Origin: Desulfomonile tiedjei DSM 6799
GTDB taxonomy: Bacteria; Desulfobacterota; Desulfomonilia; Desulfomonilales; Desulfomonilaceae
Length of the DNA: 64,000 bases
Direction: 5' to 3'
NCBI RefSeq assembly: GCF_000266945.1
Contig: NC_018025.1
Coordinates: 620,001 to 684,000 of the forward strand
Under the pieces are notes generated by a model. That model ran no database searches. It saw nothing but the letters and a program-made list of their open reading frames with translations, and had not been told where the DNA came from. Position numbers and translations under genes: made by a program. The first letter of the stretch is position 1. Each line of letters starts with the position of its first letter. Shown one piece after another: positions 32,385-37,105 of this stretch.

Positions 32385-32454
32385 TTATACCGATTCTCGA
32401 AAGTAATCACGGATTGTGAAGAGCAGTTCCCAGCAATTGGTAGCGCCGGCCTCC
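32385..32454 (+). repeat. family-A REPIN, left part (split by IS-B)
   Basis: This is the left 70 bp of the 188-bp REPIN/MITE also found at 14493-14679 (reverse complement). It starts TATACCGATTCTCGAAAGT and breaks inside the first REP palindrome, at CGCCGGCCTCC (32444-32454), the IS-B target duplication. Confidence 0.85.
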
Positions 32455-33968
32455 CAATGCTGTTGAATTAAGGAAAGGGTTCTTGATTTTTCACGTTTAA
32501 CCTCCGAGAATTCAGAAGGAATTGTGTTGACATGCGGGTAGTTACGCGCGATAAATTCTTTCAAAACAAGCTGCTGAAAGGATTTTATTATGGCACGCAT
32601 TATGCTTTGAAGAACCATGCCAACTTAGCGCGTACGCTGAAAAATTTCTTCACATTATTCCCGGACAAATCGACCCTTCCAAGAAACGCTCGCCTCAGGA
32701 CTTTACTCGAAACAGAAAACTCGCCTTTGGAAAGCTTATCACCTTCATCTTGTCCATTGCCGCCAGTGGAAAGGGTAAAGGAGTGGACATGAAATCCGGT
32801 GAATTCTTTCGACATGCCAGAATTCTTGGCCTTTGGCCTGACGCCGAGGCGATCCATCGAAGCGCGCTCACCAAGGCGCGCAAAAAGGTGGATTGGAGGA
32901 TCTTTCGGCAAATACTCGATGATGCGGTTGGTCTGGCTTATGAGTGTTGGCCTAAGAGCCCGAAGGACGAGTGGCATGGTATGTCCACTCATGCGATAGA
33001 TGGCTCCGACTATACGCTTCCAGCCGCCGATGAGCTCAGGGCCGAGTTTGATCCTGAGAGCGGACTTGGGCAAGCGGGCAAAGGACATTATCCTCAGTGT
33101 CTTGTATGCACGCTCTATGACGTCTTCAGACGTCTGCCCATCGCAAGAACTGTGGTCCCGGTGAATTCTTCGGAGCGGGACCAAGCCAAACATCTCCTGC
33201 CCCTCGTGCCTGAGGGAAGTGTCTTGCTCCTGGATCGAGGTTACCCAGGATATGAATTTCTCAGCTACCTTTTGGACAAGTTCAAAGGCTATTTCGTGAT
33301 ACGTTGCCCCGCAACGTCCACCTTCGCCACAGTAAAGGAATTCATTCGGAGCGGGAAGAGCGAAGCCGAAATCGTGATTCCTCCGACATCGAACTATCTC
33401 AGCCAGGTGACGGCTGAACAACGAAAGGCCGCCAAGCCCATCAGAGTGAGAGTCATCAGACTGTCCAATCCTGACGGAACCCTCTCGGTTCTCCTGACGA
33501 ATCTTTACGACAAGGTGGAGTTTCCGAGACAGGAGATCACTGACCTCTATTTCAGGCGATGGGAAATCGAGAGCTATTTCCGGGATGAAAAGATTGGGCT
33601 CGAAATCGAAAAATTTCATGGCAAAACCTGCAACAGCGTCCTGCAAGAACTCTTTGCAGCTGCGATCATGGCTGTGATCTCAAGAACTCTCATGGCCATT
33701 TCCACCCAGTTACTCGGTGGAGAGCTCGGAGAACCTCAGTTCAAGAATGCGGTCATGACGCTCGCGTCTGAAGCCGCCGTGCTCGCCGCAGACGATCCTG
33801 AAAGAGCCATCGAAATCTTTCAGGATATTCTCAAAGAAATCTATCGTGTCAAATACTATCGACCAAACAGTCAGCGACCACCCCAACCAAGGGTGAACAA
33901 GCAAAGCAAAAACAAATGGCTTTACCGCAGGTACAAAAATGTCCCCGCAGCTTAAGTCAACAGCATTG
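32455..33968 (+). mobile_element. insertion sequence IS-B (IS4 family), copy 1
   Basis: This 1514-bp element has ends CAATGCTGTTGAATTAAG and, reversed, CAATGCTGTTGACTTAAG (17 of 18 identical). It is flanked by a perfect 11-bp direct repeat CGCCGGCCTCC (32444-32454 and 33969-33979). It is inserted in a REP palindrome. It matches 35153-36666 in length and in every stretch compared. An 11-bp duplication and the transposase motifs fit the IS4 family. Confidence 0.95.
32590..33955 (+). CDS. IS-B transposase (IS4 family), apparent +1 frameshift
   Basis: The catalytic frame is open from 32555 but has no ATG until 32789. An ATG at 32590 with AAAGG eight bases upstream reads six codons to CTT TGA (32605-32610). 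A +1 shift there enters the catalytic frame and gives a 454-residue protein. Its next stretch (SPQDFTRNRKLAFGKLITFI) is the usual IS4 N-terminal domain. Asp motifs are HAIDGSDYTL and LLLDRGYPGYEF. The third catalytic residue lies in YFRRWEIESYFRDEK, a perfect Y-x2-R-x3-E-x6-K signature. Without frameshifting, translation could start at TTG 32750 or ATG 32789 (401 or 388 residues), cutting into the N-terminal domain. Confidence 0.85.
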
Positions 33969-33979
33969 CGCCGGCCTCC

Positions 33980-34097: not shown

Positions 34098-35152
34098 CAG
34101 CCTATAGTTTCGCCCTTTTTGTATTCTGGACGGTTAGATGGTGAGATAATCCTTGAAAAAATAAGGCGTTCCGCACATACCCGGTTTTGTGAAAGATTCT
34201 GGGAAGGAGGAACGCCAGTTGAAGAGATCTATACCAGATCCGTTCGGGATTGACGAGATTCATTTCAGAGCGTGTTTCAGCGCACCGAGTTTCCGTATCT
34301 TCGTTGCGCTGGTGGTCGGTTGGGTGCTCACTATGGGCAAGCACACTATCAGCCAGGTGATTCTGACCATGAGACTCCATGAATCCAAGCACTTCGCCAG
34401 CATCTACCGATTCCTCGGCAAGGGACGATGGGAGACTGACTTTGTCTCCTATTTCGTCTTCAGAATGTTGGTAGAAACGCTGATTGCAGAAGGGATCGAG
34501 ATCCTTGTGGTGATTGACGACACCTTGAACAAGCACACTGGCAAGAAGATCTGTGGCGCGGGCTGGCAGCATGATGGTTCACTCCCAAAGCATACTAAGC
34601 AAAAGGGGTATGGAGTGTGCTTTGTCATCATAGGACTGGCGATTCGCCTTCCCGGCATCAGCGATCGCATGTTTTGTCTGCCATACGCTGCCCGCCTTTG
34701 GTGGCCGCCAAAGGCCAAGTTTAATCCCAAGAGCCTGCCCTACAAGACAAAACCCGAACTTGGATTGGATCTTATAAATCTGACTCATTCATGGCTCCAA
34801 GAGGGAGAAAGACTGAGAATTGTGTTCGACCTGGGATACTGCTGCGATACCATCCTCAAAGCACGACCCAAGAATGTGCACATTACAGGGAGGCTGAGAA
34901 AGGATGCAGCTTTGTTCGCTGTGCTGGAACCTGCTCCATTTACAGTGATGGGCAGACCTCGCAAGAGAGGCGCTCGACTGCCCTCCCTGGAAACGATGTT
35001 CCAGGACCCCAATCTGGGGTGGAATGAGATTAGGGTCTTCTGCTATGGAAAACAAACTAAGCTCCTGATACATCAGTTCACGGCGCTATGGTATCATAGC
35101 GCAGGGCAACAGCCTCTTTCGATCGTGTTGTGCCATGACCCGGCCGGCCACC

Positions 35153-36666
35153 CAATGCTGTTGAATTAAGGAAAGGGTTCTTGATTTTTCACGTTTAACC
35201 TCCGAGAATTCAGAAGGAATTGTGTTGACATGCGGGTAGTTACGCGCGATAAATTCTTTCAAAACAAGCTGCTGAAAGGATTTTATTATGGCACGCATTA
35301 TGCTTTGAAGAACCATGCCAACTTAGCGCGTACGCTGAAAAATTTCTTCACATTATTCCCGGACAAATCGACCCTTCCAAGAAACGCTCGCCTCAGGACT
35401 TTACTCGAAACAGAAAACTCGCCTTTGGAAAGCTTATCACCTTCATCTTGTCCATTGCCGCCAGTGGAAAGGGTAAAGGAGTGGACATGAAATCCGGTGA
35501 ATTCTTTCGACATGCCAGAATTCTTGGCCTTTGGCCTGACGCCGAGGCGATCCATCGAAGCGCGCTCACCAAGGCGCGCAAAAAGGTGGATTGGAGGATC
35601 TTTCGGCAAATACTCGATGATGCGGTTGGTCTGGCTTATGAGTGTTGGCCTAAGAGCCCGAAGGACGAGTGGCATGGTATGTCCACTCATGCGATAGATG
35701 GCTCCGACTATACGCTTCCAGCCGCCGATGAGCTCAGGGCCGAGTTTGATCCTGAGAGCGGACTTGGGCAAGCGGGCAAAGGACATTATCCTCAGTGTCT
35801 TGTATGCACGCTCTATGACGTCTTCAGACGTCTGCCCATCGCAAGAACTGTGGTCCCGGTGAATTCTTCGGAGCGGGACCAAGCCAAACATCTCCTGCCC
35901 CTCGTGCCTGAGGGAAGTGTCTTGCTCCTGGATCGAGGTTACCCAGGATATGAATTTCTCAGCTACCTTTTGGACAAGTTCAAAGGCTATTTCGTGATAC
36001 GTTGCCCCGCAACGTCCACCTTCGCCACAGTAAAGGAATTCATTCGGAGCGGGAAGAGCGAAGCCGAAATCGTGATTCCTCCGACATCGAACTATCTCAG
36101 CCAGGTGACGGCTGAACAACGAAAGGCCGCCAAGCCCATCAGAGTGAGAGTCATCAGACTGTCCAATCCTGACGGAACCCTCTCGGTTCTCCTGACGAAT
36201 CTTTACGACAAGGTGGAGTTTCCGAGACAGGAGATCACTGACCTCTATTTCAGGCGATGGGAAATCGAGAGCTATTTCCGGGATGAAAAGATTGGGCTCG
36301 AAATCGAAAAATTTCATGGCAAAACCTGCAACAGCGTCCTGCAAGAACTCTTTGCAGCTGCGATCATGGCTGTGATCTCAAGAACTCTCATGGCCATTTC
36401 CACCCAGTTACTCGGTGGAGAGCTCGGAGAACCTCAGTTCAAGAATGCGGTCATGACGCTCGCGTCTGAAGCCGCCGTGCTCGCCGCAGACGATCCTGAA
36501 AGAGCCATCGAAATCTTTCAGGATATTCTCAAAGAAATCTATCGTGTCAAATACTATCGACCAAACAGTCAGCGACCACCCCAACCAAGGGTGAACAAGC
36601 AAAGCAAAAACAAATGGCTTTACCGCAGGTACAAAAATGTCCCCGCAGCTTAAGTCAACAGCATTG
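35153..36666 (+). mobile_element. insertion sequence IS-B (IS4 family), copy 2
   Basis: 1514 bp, with the same ends as copy 1. Flanked by a perfect 11-bp direct repeat GGCCGGCCACC (35142-35152 and 36667-36677). The uninterrupted target can be read in IS-A copy 1, which proves simple insertion. Both IS-B copies point the same way, 2698 bp apart. Confidence 0.96.
35288..36653 (+). CDS. IS-B transposase, copy 2
   Basis: Same gene as at 32590-33955: ATG at 35288, CTT TGA at 35303-35308, catalytic frame to 36653, and the same 401-residue open catalytic part. Because both copies keep the CTT TGA junction and have clean target duplications, the element moved while carrying it. Either the frameshift is part of normal expression, or the shorter protein suffices, or transposase was supplied in trans. 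Confidence 0.85.
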
Positions 36667-37105
36667 GGCCGGCCACCATGCCAATATGGTGTTTTTCGAT
36701 ACGGACCCTCAGGCTGCACCACAGCAGATTATCGAGCGCTACGCTGCACGCTTTAGCATTGAGATGACCAATCGAGAGACCAAGAACCTCCTGGGTGCGG
36801 CTGAACCTCAGTGTCGGAAAGAGACCTCGGTAACCCGTGCCCCTATGTTTGCTTACTGGGCCTACTGCTTTGTAGTGCTTTGGTTCGTTGGGCAATTCGT
36901 CACTGCAAAGAACCTCGTTGCCGACCCGGCTCCCTGGTACTGCCGGAAAAAGTCGTTCACCTTTTCAGACATGCTGGCAGCAGCTCGAAGGAGTCATTTC
37001 TCGCTGAGAATTTATTCGAAAGCCAGCCGAATCAATAAGTTCGAAAAACTCAACGGCCCGCGCTCCACGCGCGGACTCGACCATGCAAGAATCGCGAAAC
37101 TATAG

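Follow-up and report, generated by a model that had tools for sequence, protein, structure and literature searches.

Insertion sequences (IS) of the IS3 type use -1 recoding to join a short start-frame open reading frame (ORF) to their catalytic frame, which should limit the amount of transposase (PMC5009743). A change in the +1 direction is required by IS1447, reported in 2018, where it is obtained via transcriptional slippage (PMC6211511), and the GeneTack frameshift clusters of the Pfam family DDE_Tnp_1, three of them in the +1 direction, have been ascribed to A-rich sites and transcriptional realignment (PMC3711429). According to Atkins et al. 2016 (PMC5009743), no IS element employing +1 ribosomal frameshifting had come to light, and the IS4 family has been described as being without frameshifts in its transposase gene (PMC2266710). 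CUU UGA, the shifty stop of prfB (release factor 2, RF2), is a known +1 site, where replacement of CUU by CUA reduces frameshifting (PMC13245932). Here we analyse an IS4-type element present twice in a stretch of 64,000 nucleotides of the Desulfomonile tiedjei DSM 6799 genome (NC_018025.1, positions 620,001 to 684,000; hereafter the window), whose transposase gene opens with a short frame ending in CTT TGA, one base out of register with the catalytic frame. From comparison with related elements, +1 ribosomal frameshifting at codon 6 appears to be the best explanation of this arrangement, with a probability that we put at about 0.72.

With prfB the locus shares a CUU UGA shifty stop close to the start of the gene and the +1 direction; with IS3-type elements it shares recoding that would link a short ORF in the start frame to the frame of catalysis. 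It differs from the latter in that the direction is not -1, an A-rich heptamer is lacking, and the start frame contributes only six codons and not a DNA-binding OrfA. The features of the start region are as follows, frame A being that of the start and frame C that of catalysis.

32577-32582, + strand: Shine-Dalgarno (SD) site AAAGGA, serving ATG 32590; GGAG or AAGGAG stands at the equivalent place in relatives
32590-32610, + strand: start frame A of copy 1, ATG GCA CGC ATT ATG CTT TGA, read as MARIML and stop
32605-32610, + strand: proposed +1 shift site CTT TGA (codon 6 and stop), placed from the stops in the window, L091 and L020 and from the pattern NNU-U
32609-33955, + strand: catalytic frame C after the shift, EEPCQLSAYAEKFLHIIP..., with D137, D215, E327 and YREK
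35288-35308, + strand: start frame A of copy 2, ending in CTT TGA (35303-35308)
35307-36653, + strand: catalytic frame C of copy 2

The initial annotation had described an SD-led ATG running into CTT TGA, with the long frame at +1 and without an early ATG of its own, and had noted that the second copy keeps this junction; all of this was borne out. AAAGG (32577-32581) is followed after 8 bases by ATG 32590, CTT occupies 32605-32607 and TGA 32608-32610, and frame C lies at +1 relative to the ATG in both window copies. Frame C is open from stop to stop over 32555-33955, with no ATG, GTG or TTG ahead of TTG 32750, the next ATG being at 32789. TTG 32750 falls well within the conserved N-terminal domain, and among the relatives examined none was found to start at the equivalent of 32750 or 32789.

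Close relatives, designated below by locus numbers, occur in Desulfobacterota and Methylomagnum and share 52-64% amino-acid identity with the window transposase (about 50% for one plasmid copy). Exactly 28 nt separate the SD-led ATG from a TGCCAA motif in the window and in eight relatives whose start is visible (L018, L019, L020, L023, L064, L068, L090 and L091), which places the transposase frame consistently at +1 relative to the start. Mean pairwise identity of the 21 nt between these fixed ends is only 60%, indicating that length has been retained while sequence drifted, and the +1 offset proposed for the window thus proved genuine. L058 and L093 were omitted because their start regions could not be aligned. 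Searches of viral contigs and phage records found no close relatives, and further genome searches, one of them over only three genomes, brought no additional members.

Two relatives identify the start ATG and show frame C being read immediately past the junction. In L060 the equivalent SD-led ATG is in frame with the transposase at 30 nt and reads MAQVLTLKRSCQLTGIIQSFLSLIP, and in L089 it is likewise in frame and reads MLPNIFNPDDCISRFLSIIP; such MARIMLEEPC-like N termini in a single frame had been named by the initial annotation as a sign that the shift is real. L060 and L089 are separated in the protein tree, each placed beside +1 members, with modest support. The N-terminal region searched in frame C of L018, L020, L049, L057, L090 and L091 contains no ATG, GTG or TTG.

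Immediately after TGCCAA, only frame C behaves as protein. Over the following 39 nt in 11 members its mean pairwise BLOSUM62 score is 2.01 versus 0.53 in column shuffles (0/2000 shuffles reach 2.01) and it contains no stops, whereas frames A and B score 0.26 and 0.25 and contain 3 and 10 stops; frame C is still favoured when the first seven codons are used alone. A -1 shift out of frame B at a later point is thereby excluded. Codon positions 1, 2 and 3 differ by about 0.31, 0.21 and 0.65 over the gene as a whole, which shows purifying selection on frame C. An AlphaFold2 model of the frame-C part has a mean pLDDT of 83 (89 at residues 11-20) and places helix 1 at residues 4-14 past the junction, a predicted helix that would be lost by a start at 32750 (residue 48). 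The start, the conserved offset, the coding character of frame C past the junction and the want of another standard start are all evident from the sequence.

Frame C matches NCBIfam NF033592 (IS4 family transposase) with 172.3 bits (cut-off 115) and Pfam DDE_Tnp_1 with 61.1 bits (cut-off 23). In a 25-sequence alignment (A2), D137, D215 and E327 as well as the YREK signature (Y320, R323, E327, K334) are invariant, residues being numbered on the fused product of 454 amino acids. The ends (CAATG, of the -AATR type) and the 11-bp target duplications, within the range of 10-13, also agree with the IS4 subgroup of the family (PMC2266710). Unlike that description, however, start and catalytic frame stand at +1 in 15 copies and eight relatives; by the strict 2008 definition the element is a deviating IS4-type element, and it is IS4-type by homology.

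The two copies in the window and their flanks are as follows.

32444-32454, no strand: 11-bp target duplication left of copy 1, CGCCGGCCTCC, repeated at 33969-33979
32455-33968, + strand: IS copy 1, 1514 bp, IS4-type, inverted ends CAATGCTGTTGA / TCAACAGCATTG
35142-35152 and 36667-36677: 11-bp target duplications of copy 2, GGCCGGCCACC
35153-36666, + strand: IS copy 2, 1514 bp, with ends CAATGCTGTTGA...TCAACAGCATTG

They belong to a set of 15 copies in the D. tiedjei genome, 14 of which are identical over all 1514 bp, while the remaining one differs by two mismatches and two gaps located outside the 5' region. The 5' region is the same in 15/15 copies and an in-frame start is present in 0/15, which disposes of an error in the base count at the junction. 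The 11-bp duplications reported earlier for both window copies were found again, and target duplications flank most of the 14 identical copies, which points to recent transposition by a version that already had the split start. The element is a recently active IS4-type insertion sequence, and its split start is not the decay of a single copy.

The alternative that fares best is that the element is nevertheless dead, a single indel having broken the gene, with identical copies spread just before that event or mobilised in trans by an intact enzyme encoded elsewhere. In favour of this, the element has no known transcript or protein, action in trans is sometimes possible for transposases, and some relatives are truncated or broken. 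Set against this, no in-frame copy was found in the 99.99% complete genome, the 28-nt offset recurs in eight relatives, including the intact L020, L090 and L091, and frame C is under purifying selection, so that we consider a dead element unlikely.

Improbable as well is a direct start of frame C at a non-standard or unrecognised codon, with the SD-led ORF serving as a regulatory leader. Out-of-frame SD-led leader ORFs do exist in distant IS4 relatives, with a frame C TTG or GTG near the motif GGCA-N7-TG-...-TGCC. However, frame C in the present clade is devoid of ATG, GTG and TTG near the junction, and in L060 and L089 the SD-led ATG itself is fused to frame C.

Slippage of RNA polymerase, yielding messages with an altered base count, is known in several IS elements, the +1 direction included (PMC6211511, PMC5009743), and IS1447 and others resemble the present element in requiring a +1 change for the transposase. 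Those elements slip in about seven A, and published sites are runs of A or T about seven bases long or longer, or T5C5 with a stem-loop, whereas the longest run in the DNA at the window junction is TTT. The GeneTack clusters share the Pfam family and, in three cases, the direction, and differ in the A-rich sites to which they were ascribed. Transcriptional realignment seems very unlikely, and the shift would be made by the ribosome.

A -1 frameshift from frame B, which the initial annotation had not mentioned and which is open from ATG 32532 to the stop at 32792 and overlaps frame C, at A AAT TTC near 32640 (a match to the form X_XXY_YYZ) is scarcely tenable and was rejected for the family, since frame B is not conserved as protein past the motif (0.25 versus 0.52 in shuffles, 10 stops) while frame C is, and relatives have no upstream ATG in frame B. 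Termination and reinitiation at the TTG overlapping the TGA, which opens frame B, was rejected on the same lack of conservation.

Under +1 ribosomal frameshifting, initiation would occur at ATG 32590 behind its good SD site and six codons (MARIML) would be translated. At the point where CUU occupies the P site and UGA the A site, a fraction of ribosomes would move forward by one base, the leucine tRNA re-pairing on UUU, and translation would proceed in frame C to give MARIML-EEPCQLSAYAEKFLHIIP..., of 454 residues. The shift is presumably inefficient, and the majority of ribosomes would terminate, keeping transposase low.

The stops of different members bracket the place of the shift, provided that one site is common to all. 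Codon 7 of frame A in the window is a stop (TGA), which requires a shift at codon 6 or earlier; in L091 and L020 a frame C TGA overlaps codons 5 and 6, which requires a shift after codon 5 or later (the frame A stop of L091 is codon 8). Codons 5 and 6 therefore remain, and re-pairing of the tRNA is possible only at codon 6, which we take to be the probable site. There, NNU followed by U is found in 5/5 full-length +1 members (CUU in the window and L090, AUU in L020 and L091, CCU in L057), and the partial copies L023 and L064 have CCU-U; CC[C/U]-[C/U] is particularly prone to +1 shifts (PMC4519876).

Several observations weigh against this interpretation. NNU-U is missing at codon 6 of L019 (CTA), L018 (CCA) and L068 (CGA), whose genes are broken or only partly matched. 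In L020, L090 and L091 UCA replaces UGA, and competition with RF2 cannot then be the general signal. No SD-like booster resembling AGGGGG was found before CTT, as the initial annotation had already remarked, GCACGCATTATG standing there instead; the UGA is followed by A and not by the fourth-base C; and no stable RNA fold was detected in the window (z +1.24), on which RNA structure was rejected as a stimulator. An Rfam search returned nothing credible. Finally, in L049 1375-1570, on Methylomagnum ishizawai plasmid pRS11DPr2, the SD-led ATG (MAQVIK) needs a -1 step. This step possibly takes place at CCCCC, and the annotated start there is an internal GTG.

In contrast to prfB, then, the element lacks the SD-like booster, the UAU/UCU spacer codon and the fourth-base C, its product is a transposase, and among its relatives CCU or AUU takes the place of CUU and even UCA stands in the A site. 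Conservation of CTT TGA, which the initial annotation had named as another sign of a real shift, holds for the offset and not for the letters: CCT TGA occurs in three relatives, CTT TCA in one and ATT TCA in two, with the poorer CTA TGA, CCA TGA and CGA ACA in three broken or partly matched copies. Similarly, the suggested tie of transposition to RF2 level finds some support in the UGA of some members and in the host's own prfB, which has CTT TGA preceded by AGAGGT. Since some members lack UGA and the element has neither the prfB booster nor the fourth-base C, this link is weaker than the frameshift itself.

A +1 ribosomal frameshift for transposase synthesis, as proposed here from sequence, is probably unreported among insertion sequences; Atkins et al. 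2016 knew of none and the IS4 family was described as frameshift-free (PMC5009743, PMC2266710); no later report was found in the literature searched, which left most subscription journals outside. If confirmed, the element would offer a transposase that depends on a +1 shift at a short site, with natural variation of the shift codon (CUU, CCU or AUU, followed by UGA or UCA), and automatic annotation would be missing the true N terminus of such transposases.

About 22 IS4 elements of lower similarity (roughly 25-34% identity, several of them present in multiple copies) also carry a leader ORF that opens at an SD-led ATG, extends over roughly 20-30 codons in frame with the motif GGCA-N7-TG-...-TGCC and ends soon after it. 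In 14 of them the transposase is read at +1 relative to this leader, in 8 at -1. Leader and motif were noted upstream of the transposase at L024, L027-L029, L085 and L092-L117. Inside the motif no frame has codon-like conservation, and the motif is conserved as nucleotides. Most of these elements have a TTG or GTG in the transposase frame near the motif, and leader-coupled starts may thus serve in them. The inverted-repeat arms of the motif pair in 94% of cells, with covariation no higher than in shuffles, and GGCA-N7-TG looks like a sigma54 promoter, a resemblance only, whose function could not be demonstrated. That a broad set of Desulfobacterota IS4-type elements share a device of strong SD-led ATG and GGCA-N7-TG-...-TGCC passing ribosomes into a variously offset transposase frame (+1 in the present clade and many distant relatives, -1 in others), of which the prfB-like +1 shift would be one form within a wider recoding or start-coupling strategy, is a doubtful proposition.

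All 15 genomic copies lie on the same chromosome strand, across its full length (about 6e-5 under random orientation). A frequent insertion target is G+C-rich palindromic repeats (GCCGGCACGGAGGCCGGCG-like), used in either repeat orientation, as at window 32430-32454 and in the flanks of L002-L008, L012 and L013. Copy 2 interrupts another transposase gene (window 34189-37105), and the flanks of L009, L010, L011 and L016 represent the same kind of site, with unequal duplications in some.
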